From an uncultured Bacteroidales bacterium (GTDB lineage: Bacteria; Bacteroidota; Bacteroidia; Bacteroidales; UBA932): a stretch of 64,000 nucleotides of DNA. The stretch is from NCBI GenBank assembly GCA_905235675.1, contig CAJONC010000019.1, positions 1 through 64,000 on the forward strand, written 5' to 3'. The position numbers and the translations under genes are program-made. The notes under the pieces are model-generated. The model was not told the DNA's origin. It saw only the letters and a program-made list of their open reading frames with translations, and ran no database searches. The stretch's first letter is position 1. The number at the start of each line of letters is the position of its first letter. Shown piece by piece: positions 34,074 through 41,363 of this stretch.

Positions 34074-35489
34074 ATGACACTTATAAAATCAATTTCCGGA
34101 ATCAGGGGAACGATAGGCGGAGCACCCGGAGAGGCGCTCACCCCTGTAGATATAGTAAAATTCACCTATGCGTATTGCAGTGAACTTCGCAGGCGCAGGC
34201 AGCCCAATGCCGCAAAATATAAAGTAGTCGTAGGGCGCGACGCCCGCATCAGCGGCCGTATGGTCGAGGATCTTGTCTGCGGCACCCTGGTTTCCTGCGG
34301 CGTGGATGTGGTGAAATGCGGATTTGCATCCACTCCCACTACGGAACTTGCCGTAAGGTTTGCAGGGGCGGACGGCGGCATCATCATCACCGCCTCGCAC
34401 AATCCCCGCCAGTGGAATGCGCTCAAACTTTTGAACGAAAACGGGGAATTCCTCACTGCCGCCCAGGGCCAGGCCATCCTGGACTGCGCCGAAAGGGGAG
34501 AATTCGACTTTGCCGAAGTTGACGCCCTCGGCACGATTACCGAACACGATTTTACCGATGAACACATAGATGCGGTGCTGGCCCTTGAGGCGGTTGATGC
34601 CGAGGCTGTCCGCAAGGCAGGCTTCAAGGTAGTGCTGGATTCCATCAATTCGGTAGGCGGAATCATTATGCCCCGCCTGCTGGAAAGGCTTGGAGTCGAG
34701 TGCATCACGCTTAACGGAGAGCCTACCGGCGACTTCGCCCACAATCCGGAGCCCCTTCCGAAAAACCTCGTCGAACTCAGTGAAACAGTGGTCCGCGAGA
34801 AGGCTGACCTTGGAATCAGCGTGGATCCCGACGTGGACCGCCTTGCCTTCATCTGCGAAAACGGCGAGCCTTTCGTCGAAGAATATACCCTCGTGGCGGT
34901 TGCCGATTATCTCCTGGACGAAGCCGTGAAGAAGGGGGAAAAGAATCTTGCCACCGTTTCCAATCTGTCTTCCAGCCGCGCCCTGCGCGACGTCACCGAG
35001 GCCCACGGCGGCACCTATTATGCCGCGGCCGTGGGAGAAGTGAACGTCACCACCAAAATGCACGAGGTGAACGCCCTGATAGGGGGCGAAGGCAACGGAG
35101 GGGTAATCTATCCCGCCTCGCACTGCGGCCGCGATGCCATGGTCGGAGTAGCGCTGTTCCTCAGCAATCTTGCACATAAAGGCCTGAAAGTCAGCGAATA
35201 CAAGCAGACTCTTCCCCAGTATTTCATTGCCAAGAACCGCATAGACCTTTCCGACAGCGCCCTTATCGACAGGATACTGGAGACAATGAAGGAAAACTTC
35301 AAAAACGAGAAGGTGAACACCATAGACGGGGTGAAGGTCGATTTCGAGTCCGCCCGAGAATGGGTGCATCTGCGCCGTTCCAACACCGAACCCATAATAC
35401 GAGTCTATTCCGAGGCTCCAAGCGAAGAAAGGGCGGTTGCGCTTGGAAACGAGGTCGTAGACCTTGCAAAGAAGATAATCGAAGCCTGA
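34074..35489 (+). CDS. glmM: Phosphoglucosamine mutase / phosphohexomutase
   Basis: SGIRGTIGG, GIIITASHNPRQWNALK, DPDVDRLAF, RRSNTEPIIRVYSEA. Confidence 0.9.
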   Translation: MTLIKSISGIRGTIGGAPGEALTPVDIVKFTYAYCSELRRRRQPNAAKYKVVVGRDARISGRMVEDLVCGTLVSCGVDVVKCGFASTPTTELAVRFAGADGGIIITASHNPRQWNALKLLNENGEFLTAAQGQAILDCAERGEFDFAEVDALGTITEHDFTDEHIDAVLALEAVDAEAVRKAGFKVVLDSINSVGGIIMPRLLERLGVECITLNGEPTGDFAHNPEPLPKNLVELSETVVREKADLGISVDPDVDRLAFICENGEPFVEEYTLVAVADYLLDEAVKKGEKNLATVSNLSSSRALRDVTEAHGGTYYAAAVGEVNVTTKMHEVNALIGGEGNGGVIYPASHCGRDAMVGVALFLSNLAHKGLKVSEYKQTLPQYFIAKNRIDLSDSALIDRILETMKENFKNEKVNTIDGVKVDFESAREWVHLRRSNTEPIIRVYSEAPSEERAVALGNEVVDLAKKIIEA

Positions 35490-35490
35490 T

Positions 35491-36549
35491 ATGTTCTCGT
35501 TCCGCACGACTCCCATTGCCGACCAGCTCGACAGGGCCCTTCTGGATGGGAAGGTAGGTGTTTTCTGCACGCCTGCATGCTGGGATGCCGCCAGCGGCAG
35601 CTATCTCTACGACCTTTTCCGTACGAGGGGGAATCTTGCTGCGATTTTCCTGCCAGGCGAAGAAGCCATTCCGGGTAACGCCCACATAGACTTCAGCCCT
35701 GATGAACTTGCGGGCCTGGATGCGGTGGCGGTCGAGATTCAGGACGGAGGATCGCGTTACTTTCCCTTTACCATAGATGTACTCAGGCTTATCTCAGCCC
35801 TTTCGGTGATGGAAAATCCGCCCGCACTCTACATAGTGGACCATCCCAATCCTGCGGGCAGGGAGGTGGAAGGAACGCTGCCTGCGGGGGAGACCGATGT
35901 CTGGACCCCCGCATGCGTACACAGGCACGGACTTACCCTTGGGGAACTCGCCCAGATGTATGTGGGAGAAACGGGGGCGCAGATAGCCCTGCACGTGATT
36001 TCGGCCGGTCTGGCCTCGTCCCCGCGCAGCCTTATGCCCTGGACTATTCCTCCTGCATCCGACTTCGCAGGGGTGTTCACTCCCTATTTCTATTGCGGCG
36101 GAAAGCTTTGGACGGAGACCAACGTGACACCGGGGCTGGGAACGGTCAGGCCCTACGAGATGATAGGCGCCCCTTTCATCAAGCCCGACGGAGGACAGAT
36201 TCCCGTGCCCGAAGGAGTCCTTGCCCGTCCCTGCTCCTTCGTACCCATGGCTGGACTGTACGAAGGGGAGCGCTGTTTCGGCTGGCAGTTCATACTCACA
36301 GCCGGCACCAAATACCATTCCCTGCTGCATACCGTGCAGGTAATGCGCTATCTCAGTGAGCATTACTCCAGTTTCCATATCTCGGACAGCCTTTACGGAC
36401 GGCTCGCTGACCCAGTAATGGCGGAATACCTTCGCGGAAATATCACTTTCGACATAGTGGAAGAGCATGTAAAGAGCGAAGAACAGCGCTGGATTCGCAA
36501 GGCAAAGCGTTATCTTTTGTACGATGATCCGCCCGTAAGGCTCAAATAA
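35491..36549 (+). CDS. DUF1343 protein (NamZ-like exo-beta-N-acetylmuramidase family), no signal peptide
   Basis: AVEIQDGGSRYFPFTIDVL, YIVDHPNPAGREVEGTLP, HRHGLTLGELAQMYVGE, WTETNVTPGLGTVRPYEMIGAPFI. Confidence 0.82.
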   Translation: MFSFRTTPIADQLDRALLDGKVGVFCTPACWDAASGSYLYDLFRTRGNLAAIFLPGEEAIPGNAHIDFSPDELAGLDAVAVEIQDGGSRYFPFTIDVLRLISALSVMENPPALYIVDHPNPAGREVEGTLPAGETDVWTPACVHRHGLTLGELAQMYVGETGAQIALHVISAGLASSPRSLMPWTIPPASDFAGVFTPYFYCGGKLWTETNVTPGLGTVRPYEMIGAPFIKPDGGQIPVPEGVLARPCSFVPMAGLYEGERCFGWQFILTAGTKYHSLLHTVQVMRYLSEHYSSFHISDSLYGRLADPVMAEYLRGNITFDIVEEHVKSEEQRWIRKAKRYLLYDDPPVRLK

Positions 36550-36562
36550 TAAAATAAATTTA

Positions 36563-36570
36563 TACATTTG
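36563..36570 (+). promoter_or_regulatory. -7 element TACATTTG upstream of the TonB_C lipoprotein
   Basis: Match to TAnnTTTG. Confidence 0.45.
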
Positions 36571-36623
36571 CACGATAAAGCGAATTATTGAATAAAAAAC
36601 CAAACCAAATAACAAATCAAATC

Positions 36624-37472
36624 ATGAAAAAAGCATTTTCAATTCTTGCAGCTGCAGCAGCACTCGTATTCGCTGTTTCCTGCAATCAGAACAAACCCAC
36701 GGCTGACGAAGTTTCCGCAGCGGCCGTAAAGGATGCAACCGCCCTCGTGGAGGCCGTTGTCGCAGGTGATTCTGATGCCATCAAGGCAGCCCTCGTTACC
36801 AAAGTGGGCGCTTTCGATGCCCTTGGCATTTCCGATGAGAAGTACAGCGATCTTCAGGATCTCTACAATGTTACCTTCGACGACACCCTCGCTGAAAATG
36901 GTGTTGACGAGGATGATATCAAGGCCGTCCTCAAGAAGAGGGGCATTGAGATTCCCGTAATCAAGAAGGTTGAGGCTCCCGAGGTTGTCGCCGAGGCTGA
37001 AGAGAAGACAGATGAGCTTGCAGAAGCTGCAGAAGAAGCTGTAGAAAACGCTGAAACCGCTGCAACTGAGGCAGTTGACGCCATCAAGGCTGCCGCTGCA
37101 GATGCAGTCGAAGTTGCTGAAGAAGTTGTAGAAGATGTCGAGGAAGAGGTTCCCTTCATCCTTGTTGAGAAGAAGCCCGTGTTCAACGGAGGCGATCCTG
37201 CAAAGGAATTCTCGAAGTGGGTAGGCCAGAACATCAACTATCCTGAATCCGCCAAGGAAGCCGGCATTTCCGGTAAGGTTATCACCAAGTTCGTCGTCGC
37301 CAAGGATGGCAGCGTGAAGGATGTCAAGGTTATCAAGAGTGTCAATCCCGCCCTTGACGCCGAAGCTGTCCGCGTTATTTCCAACTCACCCGCATGGGTT
37401 CCCGGCCAGAATGGTGAATCTCCTGTGGATGTCAGCTACACCTTCCCCGTCGTATTCGTTCTCGCAAACTAA
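36624..37472 (+). CDS. Lipoprotein with Ala/Glu-rich middle region and C-terminal TonB domain
   Basis: MKKAFSILAAAAALVFAVSCNQN lipobox; C-terminal NINYPESAKEAGISGKVITKFVVAKDGSVKDVKVIKSVNPALDAEAVRVISNSPAWVPGQNGESPVDVSYTFPVVF. Confidence 0.82.
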   Translation: MKKAFSILAAAAALVFAVSCNQNKPTADEVSAAAVKDATALVEAVVAGDSDAIKAALVTKVGAFDALGISDEKYSDLQDLYNVTFDDTLAENGVDEDDIKAVLKKRGIEIPVIKKVEAPEVVAEAEEKTDELAEAAEEAVENAETAATEAVDAIKAAAADAVEVAEEVVEDVEEEVPFILVEKKPVFNGGDPAKEFSKWVGQNINYPESAKEAGISGKVITKFVVAKDGSVKDVKVIKSVNPALDAEAVRVISNSPAWVPGQNGESPVDVSYTFPVVFVLAN

Positions 37473-37491
37473 TTCTGCGACATACAACAGT

Positions 37492-37519
37492 AAAGGCCGC
37501 CCGCAAAGGTGGCCTTTTT
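37492..37519 (+). terminator. Intrinsic terminator after the TonB_C lipoprotein
   Basis: aaaggccgcc-cgcaaa-ggtggccttt then tt (one wobble). Confidence 0.8.
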
Positions 37520-37534
37520 CCGTTTCGTGTCCCG

Positions 37535-37638
37535 GCCTCCCTGCAGGCCTTCAGGTATCTCCAACCCCCTCCCTAAAGGGCACCCTCCCCCTAAGCCGGG
37601 GGTGGCAGGTTGTCGAACCTGAAGGCCTGCAGGGAGGC
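37535..37638. repeat. Perfect 22-bp inverted repeat with 60-bp C-rich spacer in a convergent intergenic region
   Basis: gcctccctgcaggccttcaggt (37535-37556) / acctgaaggcctgcagggaggc (37617-37638). Confidence 0.92.
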
Positions 37639-37639
37639 T

Positions 37640-39427
37640 CTATGCGGGATCGGAATCGACGGTGAAGTGCTCGCGGGGGTTGCGGGCGCGGAATTCGGAA
37701 AGAATTCCGGCGAGGGTGGCCTTGCGGGCCATGTGGCTGCGGTCGCGGGGCAGGGTGATGCGTATCGTGCCGCCGAGTTCGCTGGGATGGAAACCATTCC
37801 TCTGCAGGCTTCCTTCAAGTTCCTGCGAGATGATTCCGGACGCGAAGTGTATATCGGTCAGCCTGGAAAATGGCGGAAGGTTGAACTGTTTTCTTTCGCC
37901 CATCAGAGGGCTTGCATCCTTTAATGAAAATACCTGATGCGAAGCCTGGTAACTCTGTATTACCAGCTTTGCAGGACAGCCCCTGAGCCTTTCCAGATAC
38001 TGGAAGGCCCTTTCGTCGGAACGGAAATCGCCGGCATCGAATAGGGCGTCCGCGCTGAGCATTGCAATCAGGTCGAAACTGCCGAGATCGGTTTTGGCTG
38101 CGGACGGAATTGTGAAAATGCTGACGCCTTCCATCCCGAGCCCTGCAAGGGCGGAGACGACATCTTCCTCCTTTTCAAAGCCGCGGATTATCGCAGTCTT
38201 CCCGTCTTTGGGTATGGCCTGCAACAGTTTGCGTGAGAACGGACCAATCACGCCGTTCTTGCGTTTTTCGGCCTTCATGTCCACGAAAATCTCCTGATGA
38301 CGGCCCTGTGCGGGAGCCGTGCTGATTCCGAAATATCTGCCGGTCTGCTCATTGTAAAGGCTTTCCAGCGAAGGGGAGTCCGTGCCGAGAATGACGGGGC
38401 AGGAATGTATCACCGACATCTTTACCGCGCAGTCGCGGGCATTGTAGCGGGGTGCGGTGTCGCCCTGCTTGTAGAAGGGGGACTGCTCGTTGTCCACTAT
38501 TATCAGGCCCAGGTCCCTGTGGGGCAGGAAGATGGAAGAACGCGTCCCTATCAGTACGTAAGGCCTGCCGGAACGTATGTCGTCGGCAATCCTGCGCCTT
38601 GCCGCCTGCGTAATCTGCGAATGGTGCACGAGGAGAAGCCCTCCGAATGCCGCTTCGAGCTCTTTCCGCAGTGCCGGAACAAGATCGGTCTCGTTCACGA
38701 GGATGAAGACGTTTCTCCCGCTTCGCAGCGTCTGCGCCACGGCATCCATATAATAAGTATTCCTTTCCCTGCCTTTCAGCAGCACCGGTTTGCCCTGATT
38801 CGTCAGCACAGGGCCTGAAACTGCGGGAATATCCTGCAGCAGCTTCGACCAGTCCGGCAAAGCGAGGCCGTCTTCTGAAAGGGAAGCAAGGCGGAGACTT
38901 GCGGCTTCAAGTTCTTCCGCAATCTTCGCCCTCTGCTCCGAAAGGCGCTGCATCACGCTTTCGGAATGCCTGCCTGCAAGTTCGGCATCCTTCGCCTCCA
39001 ACCTCCCTGAAAGCTTTTCAACTTTGGACTGCCAGAGTGAGATGGTGCGCTCCTGAAGCAGTTCCCTGCGCCGGCGCGACTTGGCTTCGCTTTCTTCCGA
39101 GGCGGTTTTAAGGCTTGGATAAGCCGCCTTGTACACTTCCCCGACTGTGCACAGGTAATATTTGGAAATGAATTTCCAGAGTTCAATTTCTTCCGCCGTT
39201 ATGGCAGGGAGCCCCGAATAAATGCTTTCGACGGGAAGAATCCTGGAAGCTTCTATTTCGGGGGCGGCATCGGCATCGCTCACTACGCCTATAAGCCTGC
39301 GGCCGGCGAATTTTACCTCCACTCGATCGCCCTCGCGGACGCTCCCGCCTCCTTCAGGGATATAATAACAAGGCTCCCACTCCAGGCGGAGTGGGAGTAT
39401 AAGCTTGATATATTGCCTTTCAGGCAA
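37640..39427 (-). CDS. priA: PriA-like primosomal protein lacking helicase and zinc-binding motifs
   Basis: PriA scaffold: LPLRLEWEPCYYIPEGGGSVREGDRVEVKFAGRRLIGVV, YVLIGTRSSIFLPHRDLGLIIVDNEQSPFYKQGDTAPRYNARDCAV, GTDSPSLES, C-terminal FTVDSDP. Walker A and CxxC motifs absent. Confidence 0.82.
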   Translation of the reverse strand: MPERQYIKLILPLRLEWEPCYYIPEGGGSVREGDRVEVKFAGRRLIGVVSDADAAPEIEASRILPVESIYSGLPAITAEEIELWKFISKYYLCTVGEVYKAAYPSLKTASEESEAKSRRRRELLQERTISLWQSKVEKLSGRLEAKDAELAGRHSESVMQRLSEQRAKIAEELEAASLRLASLSEDGLALPDWSKLLQDIPAVSGPVLTNQGKPVLLKGRERNTYYMDAVAQTLRSGRNVFILVNETDLVPALRKELEAAFGGLLLVHHSQITQAARRRIADDIRSGRPYVLIGTRSSIFLPHRDLGLIIVDNEQSPFYKQGDTAPRYNARDCAVKMSVIHSCPVILGTDSPSLESLYNEQTGRYFGISTAPAQGRHQEIFVDMKAEKRKNGVIGPFSRKLLQAIPKDGKTAIIRGFEKEEDVVSALAGLGMEGVSIFTIPSAAKTDLGSFDLIAMLSADALFDAGDFRSDERAFQYLERLRGCPAKLVIQSYQASHQVFSLKDASPLMGERKQFNLPPFSRLTDIHFASGIISQELEGSLQRNGFHPSELGGTIRITLPRDRSHMARKATLAGILSEFRARNPREHFTVDSDPA

Positions 39428-39434
39428 GGGAAAA

Positions 39435-40115
39435 CTATTTGAGCGTGCCGGCTTCGGCAGCCTTGATCATGTTCTCGTTGGCGGTCACATAAACCTCCAC
39501 GCGGCGGTTCTGGGCGCGTCCTTCAACAGTTTCGTTGCTTGCGATGGGAAGGTCGAAGGACTTGCCTTCGGCAACGATTTTGTTCTTGAGGCCTGCAGCC
39601 TTGAGGGTCTTTTCGACCGCGTCCGCGCGCTGCTGGGAAATTTTCTGGTTGTATTCGGCGGTGCCGGTCTTGTCGGCGTGGCCCCAGATGGTGATGTCGG
39701 TGTCGGGGAGGTCAGTCATGGCTTCCGCAAACTGCTGGAGGGATTTCTGTGCATCGGGGCTGATGGTGGTGCTGTTGGTGTTGAAGAGGATTCCGTTCTC
39801 GAAGGTGACGCGGATGGCCTGGAGTCCGTTGATTTCGAAGGTTTCAACCTTGGCGGCTTCGAGGGCGGCAAGTTCTTCGGCCTTCTTGTCCATCTTGTTG
39901 CCGATGATGGCGCCGGTGGTTCCGCCTACAGCGGTACCTGCTGCCGCTCCGATGGCGGCTGACTTGACATCGCCACCGATCAGATAACCGAGGGCAGCGC
40001 CTGCGATGGCTCCGCCGGAAGCTCCGATGGCAGTTCCCTTGACGGCGTTGTTAAGAGAAGAGCAACTGGAGAAGATAACTGCTCCACAAAGTGCAAAAGC
40101 TAAAATTTTTTTCAT
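39435..40115 (-). CDS. OmpA-family lipoprotein with glycine-zipper N-terminal segment
   Basis: GASGGAIAGAALGYLIGGDVKSAAIGAAAGTAVGGTTGAIIG and OmpA motif ITIWGHADKTGTAEYNQKISQQRADAVEKTL...NRRVEVYV. Confidence 0.9.
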   Translation of the reverse strand: MKKILAFALCGAVIFSSCSSLNNAVKGTAIGASGGAIAGAALGYLIGGDVKSAAIGAAAGTAVGGTTGAIIGNKMDKKAEELAALEAAKVETFEINGLQAIRVTFENGILFNTNSTTISPDAQKSLQQFAEAMTDLPDTDITIWGHADKTGTAEYNQKISQQRADAVEKTLKAAGLKNKIVAEGKSFDLPIASNETVEGRAQNRRVEVYVTANENMIKAAEAGTLK

Positions 40116-40223
40116 AATCTGTAATTGTATTAGAATTAAAAATGTGTCAGCTTTATCCCTGCAATTATAGTCATAATTGACGGATTTTGCAAGTATGCGC
40201 GAAACAGAAAATCAAATAGTATA

Positions 40224-40262
40224 AATATTCAGTTGAATATTCTGGAATTTTGTATAATTTTG
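40224..40262 (+). promoter_or_regulatory. carA promoter region: 18-bp palindrome overlapping -33, and -7 TAATTTTG
   Basis: aatattca-gt-tgaatatt (40224-40241); GTTG 40232-40235; TAATTTTG 40255-40262, 19-nt spacer. Confidence 0.6.
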
Positions 40263-40283
40263 TAAAACAATACAGGGTAGTGT

Positions 40284-41363
40284 ATGTCAGAAAAATCCAA
40301 AAAAGCCATTCTTGCCCTTTCCGACGGAAGTGTTTTTGAGGGATATTCCTTCGGTTGGAACGATGCCTGTTCGGGCGAGGTGGTGTTTTCCACCGCAATG
40401 GTGGGTTATCCCGAAAGCCTTACCGATCCTTCTTACAGCGGACAGATACTCTGCGCAAGTTATCCCCTGATAGGAAATTACGGGGTGCCTGCCGACGAGC
40501 AGGACGAAAACGGAATTTCCAGGGCGTTCGAATCTGAGAAAATCTGGGTAAAGGGGCTTATAATCAGCGATTATTCGGCAAGTTTCAGCCATTGGGATGC
40601 AGTTCGCAGCCTGGACGCCTGGCTGAAGGAGCAGAAAATTCCCGGCATCTATGGCATAGATACCAGGGCGCTTACCAAGCTTCTGCGCGAAAAAGGTTCA
40701 ATGCTCGGACAGATAATCCCGGAAGGTGCGGGCGCGCAGTCCGTACTCTACGATCCCGGAGTGGAAAACCAGCTGGAGATAGTGTCCTGCAGGGAACCCA
40801 TATTTTACGGGGACGGATCCAAGACCGTCGTCCTGGTCGACTGCGGCGTAAAGCACAACATACTCCGCTGTCTGCTCGGGCTTGGCGTAAGGGTGGTCCG
40901 CGTACCCTGGGATTATGATTTCAGCACTGTCGACTACGACGGACTCTTCATCTCCAACGGACCCGGAAACCCCGAACTCTGCGGCCCCGCCATAGCGCAT
41001 ATACGCGAGGCGATGGGGGAGGACAGGCCCATCTTCGGGATATGTATGGGAAACCAGCTCCTCGCCCGTGCCGCGGGGGCTTCCACATATAAACTTAAAT
41101 ACGGTCACCGCGGGCACAACCAGCCGGTGAGGATGGTGGGAAGCAAGCGCTGTTTCGTCACCTCCCAGAACCACGGCTACGCCGTCGACGACAAGACTCT
41201 CGGCCCCGACTGGGATGCCTGGTTCGTGAATATGAACGACGGCTCCAACGAAGGCATACGCCACCGCAGCAAGCCTTTCTTCTCGGTGCAGTTCCATCCC
41301 GAGGCTTCCAGCGGCCCCACCGACACACGTTATCTGTTTGACGAATTCAAATCTTTGCTATGA
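40284..41363 (+). CDS. carA: Carbamoyl-phosphate synthase small subunit
   Basis: LALSDGSVFEGYSFG, IFGICMGNQLLARAAGA, SVQFHPEASSGPTDT. Confidence 0.95.
   Translation: MSEKSKKAILALSDGSVFEGYSFGWNDACSGEVVFSTAMVGYPESLTDPSYSGQILCASYPLIGNYGVPADEQDENGISRAFESEKIWVKGLIISDYSASFSHWDAVRSLDAWLKEQKIPGIYGIDTRALTKLLREKGSMLGQIIPEGAGAQSVLYDPGVENQLEIVSCREPIFYGDGSKTVVLVDCGVKHNILRCLLGLGVRVVRVPWDYDFSTVDYDGLFISNGPGNPELCGPAIAHIREAMGEDRPIFGICMGNQLLARAAGASTYKLKYGHRGHNQPVRMVGSKRCFVTSQNHGYAVDDKTLGPDWDAWFVNMNDGSNEGIRHRSKPFFSVQFHPEASSGPTDTRYLFDEFKSLL

Follow-up and report, generated by a model that had tools for sequence, protein, structure and literature searches.

The PriA helicase ranks among the most widely conserved activities of bacteria, although laboratory Escherichia coli can do without it. 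The locus described here encodes a PriA homologue that has lost its helicase motor. The window (the whole 64,000-nucleotide stretch of Bacteroidales DNA that was analyzed, contig CAJONC010000019.1) contains, on its reverse strand at 37640-39427, an open reading frame of 595 codons (595 aa) with a TTG start and zero internal stops. A preliminary description, made from the sequence alone, had presented it as a full-length PriA homologue in an uninterrupted frame, lacking all helicase motifs and zinc fingers; it had suggested a structural, DNA-binding or primosome-scaffold role, and had named profile alignment, structure prediction, a search of the genome for a canonical PriA and dN/dS across relatives as suitable checks.

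Profile alignment bears out the assignment. The window protein is a PriA homologue, with a similarity far above chance: PF17764 (the PriA 3′-DNA-binding domain, 3′BD) matches its N terminus (E = 5e-18, 65 bits versus a cut-off of 22.7), fourteen NCBIfam PriA models match it with E-values down to 5e-59, and PriA chains from the PDB align with its sequence at E = 2e-29. The curated cut-offs are not reached by any of the NCBIfam matches (200 versus 813 bits for NF004066, 151 versus 230 bits for TIGR00595). The frame is indeed open throughout, without an internal stop; "full-length" holds in that the alignment to PriA runs from end to end, but not in size, as the protein is approximately 100-150 aa shorter than its intact relatives (646-907 aa) because the zinc-binding cysteine-rich region (CRR) and part of the second helicase lobe (lobe 2) are deleted.

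The individual motif readings quoted in the preliminary description (Walker A, DEEH, GSATPSLES, the cysteine count and the missing GTQM) were all verified. At Walker A, canonical GVTGSGKTEIY aligns with G---RERNTYY, such that three P-loop residues are deleted and the lysine is replaced by arginine (Arg222); the exact placement of the gap is an alignment choice, and rows such as L010 (G---GGRTEEY) make the deletion clear. Motif II reads DNEQ in place of DEEH and motif III reads GTDSPSLES in place of GSATPSLES, while motifs V (GTQMxxKGxDF) and VI (QxxGRxGR) are absent and motif IV is also missing in the alignment. The protein has five cysteines in all and no CxxC, the CRR with its eight zinc-ligating cysteines being missing, and a profile search with PF18319 (the PriA zinc ribbon) gave no match anywhere in the window's genome. 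The aromatic-rich loop (ARL) that follows motif II is kept (YKQ...APRYNARD). From the loss of motifs, the window protein is predicted neither to hydrolyze ATP nor to unwind DNA. The features of the locus, all on the reverse strand, are as follows.

37640..39427, reverse strand: priA pseudohelicase gene (ORF; Pfam, NCBIfam and PDB matches; AlphaFold; Foldseek)
39116..39415, reverse strand: 3′BD, aa 5-104, conserved (PF17764, entropy, dN/dS)
38870..39115, reverse strand: helical hairpin, aa 105-186, between the 3′BD and helicase lobe 1 (AlphaFold model)
38750..38773, reverse strand: Walker A remnant GRERNTYY, aa 219-226 (alignment)
38483..38494, reverse strand: Walker B/motif II remnant DNEQ, aa 312-315 (PDB and in-genus alignments)
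38423..38482, reverse strand: aromatic-rich loop region SPFYKQGDTAPRYNARDCA, aa 316-335, conserved (invariant K320, P326 and R331; dN/dS)
38363..38386, reverse strand: motif III remnant GTDSPSLE for GSATPSLE, aa 348-355 (alignment)
38105..38182, reverse strand: approximate site of the missing CRR and motifs IV-V, aa 416-441 (alignment; PF18319 absence)
37643..37951, reverse strand: end of lobe 2 and C-terminal domain (CTD), aa 493-595, retained (conserved residues, confident model, dN/dS)
39435..40115, reverse strand: OmpA-family lipoprotein gene, directly upstream of priA (ORF list, gene order in relatives)

The structure prediction proposed as a check gave a confident AlphaFold2 model (50 sequences; mean pLDDT 93.4, pTM 0.89), for which hits 1-9 in a Foldseek search of the PDB were all PriA (TM-score to query up to 0.70), followed by Mfd and DEAD-box proteins. 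In this model the PriA fold is kept, including both RecA lobes and the CTD. Like canonical PriA (E. coli and Klebsiella; PDB 4nl4, 6dgd and 8fak), the protein combines a 3′BD, two RecA-like lobes, the ARL and a CTD in one fold; unlike canonical PriA, it lacks the P-loop, DEEH, the CRR and motifs V/VI, and carries a helical hairpin after the 3′BD. The hairpin is modeled as two long helices (aa 105-150 and 156-186), and a similar heptad-like sequence is present in intact in-genus PriA.

The search for a canonical PriA in the host genome (2.21 Mb in 71 contigs, 96% complete, with priA inside a 74-kb contig) returned none, leaving the window ORF as the only PriA homologue. With no other PriA by TIGR00595 and no PF18319 in the genome, a hidden canonical copy was ruled out; the further TIGR00595 matches correspond in length to other helicases, such as those of the RecG and Mfd types. 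A hidden second copy is also not credible because 108 of the 232 genomes in the genus set (each at least 85% complete) are without any PriA zinc ribbon. The other 124 contain PF18319, as do 93 of the 158 genomes with at least 90% completeness and no more than 5% contamination; the window protein itself is matched by 223 of the 232. The named relatives retrieved by profile (Candidatus Cryptobacteroides merdipullorum, aphodequi and choladohippi, together with many Bacteroidales MAGs from rumen, horses and poultry) point to Cryptobacteroides, or a close equivalent among rumen/gut Bacteroidales, as the genus. In ten PriA sequences from other families of the order, neither the zinc cysteines nor the GKT of the P-loop has been lost. 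G159, an assembly contaminated at 7%, holds two different CRR-less priA genes (L043 and L064), probably reflecting mixed strains.

Across 66 diverse motor-less rows the 3′BD, the ARL and the DFRxDE, ERxxFxxPPxxR and DVDP motifs show the conservation seen in the intact PriA of the genus. Invariant or near-invariant residues of the motor-less clade include Y21, G33, W84, Y90, Y91, C93, E314, K320, P326, R331, R469, D471, E472, Q491, E511, R512, P518, P519, R522 and D593-P594. Because the parts that read the fork are kept and the parts that move or gate DNA have been dropped, we infer that this PriA pseudohelicase, the only PriA of its organism, probably acts as an ATP-independent replication-restart platform, from which ATP binding, the motor and the CRR wedge have been lost. 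In such a platform the 3′BD would read the 3′ end of the leading strand, while the fork arms and the lagging-strand ssDNA would be held by the ARL, both dead RecA-like lobes and the CTD, in a groove that, without the CRR gate, would stand open on the lagging-strand side. The putative fork-bound protein may then recruit DnaB, the replicative helicase, probably in concert with the loader DciA, so that both fork binding and DnaB loading belong to the proposed role. Since the lagging-strand duplex could not be unwound, the platform would act on forks with existing lagging-strand ssDNA, or would need another helicase. The E. coli CRR serves as the wedge for unwinding, closes a pore over the lagging-strand ssDNA by a swinging movement and bears the PriB dock (PMC10175261); because that element is both the lagging-strand pore and the docking site, a CRR-less PriA must work unlike any PriA characterized so far. 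DciA is present in 162 of 165 genomes, the window's included, and loss of this loader was thus rejected as a correlate of the motor-less state.

The same retained parts could serve a protein that has left replication restart altogether, as a branched-DNA binder with a function in recombination intermediates, in the nucleoid or related to SSB. Conserved DNA-contacting parts would be needed for any fork-binding role, and with the CRR goes the element that organizes primosome assembly in E. coli (PMC10175261). We nevertheless consider such neofunctionalization unlikely, given that the gene is single-copy with an intact fold, that its residues are conserved as in the intact PriA of the genus, which suggests the old partners, and that the parallel Deinococcus PriA keeps its contact with DnaB (PMC4504706).

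A different division of labor, in which PriA only recognizes the fork and another 3′-5′ helicase unwinds it in trans, would fit the conservation of the ARL and 3′BD. A candidate fork helicase is available, RecG being present in all 165 genomes of at least 90% completeness, the window's genome included, but no gene was found to track the motor-less state (the two genes tested, RecG and DciA, each occur almost universally), and an adaptor of this type appears distinctly improbable. From E. coli recG-priA genetics comes the separate idea that loss of RecG could make a helicase-dead PriA advantageous; with RecG in 165/165 genomes, it was rejected.

Less probable again is that the gene is decaying and heading for loss with its frame still unbroken, and here the dN/dS comparison, the last of the proposed checks, speaks against decay. 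Values in close motor-less pairs were 0.07-0.36, well below 1 in every pair, and the pooled value was 0.160 for 14 chosen motor-less pairs (three of them from the second clade) versus 0.148 for 9 intact pairs, indicating purifying selection. These figures are for related copies, as the nearest relatives of the window protein (56-58% identity) are too distant for unsaturated dN/dS; the nearest measured pair, L038/L040 from the window's five-member clade, gave 0.097. By region, motor-less versus intact dN/dS was 0.259 versus 0.047 at Walker A, 0.061 versus 0.089 across motif II and the aromatic-rich loop (the lowest region in motor-less PriA), 0.111 versus 0.135 in the 3′BD, 0.149 versus 0.100 in lobe 2 and 0.176 versus 0.150 in the CTD. 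Column entropies agree (3′BD, 1.65 in motor-less versus 1.61 in intact; Walker A, 2.23 versus 0.80). Purifying selection on these proteins is therefore strong but redistributed, being relaxed at Walker A and not at the ARL and 3′BD. The relaxed motor regions are what decay would predict, as are G125, G129, G133 and G032, four genomes at or above 90% completeness without a PriA match above the Mfd/RecG background; an open frame and a pooled dN/dS of 0.16 are not those of a pseudogene, however, there are zero internal stops among the PriA matches listed across the genus, and the invariant residues are kept across 66 diverse rows. These four may have lost PriA entirely or may have gaps in their assemblies; unless gaps explain them, some species may be able to do without the platform. 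The scaffold or DNA-binding role suggested at the outset gains support from this pattern, since purifying selection acts on related motor-less copies and their conservation centers on the DNA-contacting parts. The preliminary description had also noted that intact PriA in relatives, combined with neutral decay of this copy, would speak against such a role: some other species of the genus do have an intact PriA, but neutral decay is not what the motor-less copies show.

Mis-assembly or an annotation artefact, for which only the 71-contig, 96%-complete state of the assembly could be cited, has a negligible probability because relatives from independent assemblies (56-58% identity to the window protein) share the architecture, which recurs in many MAGs of separate assembly, drawn from various hosts and studies, and because the gene lies within a 74-kb contig.

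Loss of the CRR is a recurrent event. With the trait columns left out of the PriA tree, at least three changes are needed to account for the CRR-less state, the CRR-less groups being a 66-row clade that includes the window protein (SH-aLRT 96), a 14-row clade and the singleton L100. A single origin was rejected on a 55-row tree, likewise without trait columns (log-likelihood difference 62, p-AU 0.0068). An independent tree, built from the RecG of 60 genomes, needs seven changes: a branch of support 98 parts the main clade from the intact genomes, one long-branched intact genome (G164) being weakly placed on the main-clade side, while the intact genomes G175 and G262 fall inside the second group and G264, G190, G221 and G153 fall among intact genomes. 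These satellites may represent further independent losses, the trees being quick ones with several long-branched rows. The phenomenon is genus-wide and recurrent, with deletion of the CRR and motifs having occurred at least three times.

The order of loss can be read from the 152 in-genus PriA sequences that were aligned, of which 71 combine a GKT P-loop with the zinc cysteines and 81 are without the CRR. Loss of the CRR (wedge and pore gate) first, with the ATPase and P-loop lost later, is the simplest order and probably the actual one, because none of the 152 combines a dead P-loop with a retained CRR, while several CRR-less proteins keep GKT. L100 is CRR-less yet has full GVTGAGKTEIY, DEEH and GSATPSLE motifs; L073, L085, L095 and L101 are CRR-less with GKT kept, and L094 and L096 read GKK. 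In the main motor-less clade the P-loop is usually three residues shorter, and arginine occupies the Walker A lysine column in 92% of rows, versus lysine in 100% of intact rows. In L316 (G142), the motor motifs are largely retained despite loss of the zinc module: the zinc cysteines have gone, and GVTASGKT, DEEN and a motif-V-like GNRIISKGFDF are kept. The PriA of G203 is likewise an intermediate type, CRR-less with GKT.

For a helicase-dead PriA, the preliminary description had pointed to actinobacteria. Actinobacterial PriA, from a different phylum to the window protein, is annotated as probably helicase-inactive, with poorly conserved helicase motifs (NCBIfam/UniProt). Compared by profile score, the PRK14873 models, which we take to represent actinobacterial-type PriA, match the window protein at 1e-25 or worse, versus 5e-59 for general PriA models, and because they fit so much worse the two losses are probably independent. 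An experimentally demonstrated precedent does exist, in Deinococcus: D. radiodurans PriA has no ATPase or unwinding activity, binds ssDNA and forks at close to the E. coli level and contacts DnaB (PMC4504706). Both it and the window protein have a dead P-loop (Lys to Arg) and a degenerate motif II in a gene that is retained. Deinococcus-Thermus PriA, however, keeps a recognizable zinc ribbon (control genomes match PF18319) whereas the window PriA is without the CRR; the three-residue P-loop deletion is unreported for Deinococcus-Thermus PriA, and motifs IV-V are deleted from the window protein too. Unlike the Deinococcus case, the loss in Cryptobacteroides is repeated within one genus, beside intact relatives. 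The window PriA is best read as convergent with the Deinococcus PriA pseudohelicase, and more reduced.

In E. coli, the K230R variant loses ATPase and unwinding activity (PMC4504706); it carries the same Walker A Lys to Arg change, as a laboratory point mutation with the CRR and other motifs intact. Cells with ATPase-dead PriA are viable and can recombine, and ATPase-dead PriA can still build primosomes on model substrates (PMC4504706), and the PriA ATPase is unnecessary for PriA-PriB restart (PMC10175261). We found no published report of a CRR-less PriA from Cryptobacteroides or Bacteroidetes, in a search that reached few subscription papers. PriA pseudohelicases are known; the new element is a CRR-less, P-loop-deleted form arising repeatedly in one Bacteroidota genus.

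Beyond the platform itself, we tentatively raise the possibility, which falls short of an even chance, that this lineage evolved motor-free restart at least three times, with a CRR-less, ATPase-less PriA holding the fork in an open groove and passing its exposed lagging strand straight on to DnaB-DciA. If this is true, fork recognition, and not unwinding, is the indispensable part of PriA; and if the motor-less proteins still carry out restart, CRR-dependent pore closure and partner docking cannot be universal. A genus in which the PriA zinc module is missing from approximately half of the species and present in their intact sisters constitutes a natural experiment: the comparison orders the losses (CRR, then P-loop), separates the needed parts (3′BD, ARL and CTD) from the unneeded, and supplies matched pairs of intact and motor-less PriA for biochemistry.

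The gene neighborhood provides context and has no part in the mechanism. The OmpA-family gene and priA lie 7 bp apart on the same strand, with priA downstream, and are probably co-transcribed; the same order is found in L174, L175 and L179, as well as in G194 (L320), which is more distant. Within window 34074-40115, phosphomannomutase-like and energy-transducer-like genes are also neighbors in the close relatives L174, L175 and L179. Neighbors are common to loci within the window's clade, whereas intact loci share almost none, and synteny is therefore uninformative on replacement. Immediately after the priA stop, at 37535-37638, is a perfect 22-nt inverted repeat with a 60-nt spacer; Rfam gave no match in window 36500-41000, the repeat included. 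Its core (approximately 50 nt) recurs in ten more copies elsewhere in the genome at 84-100% identity, and is REP-like and intergenic.
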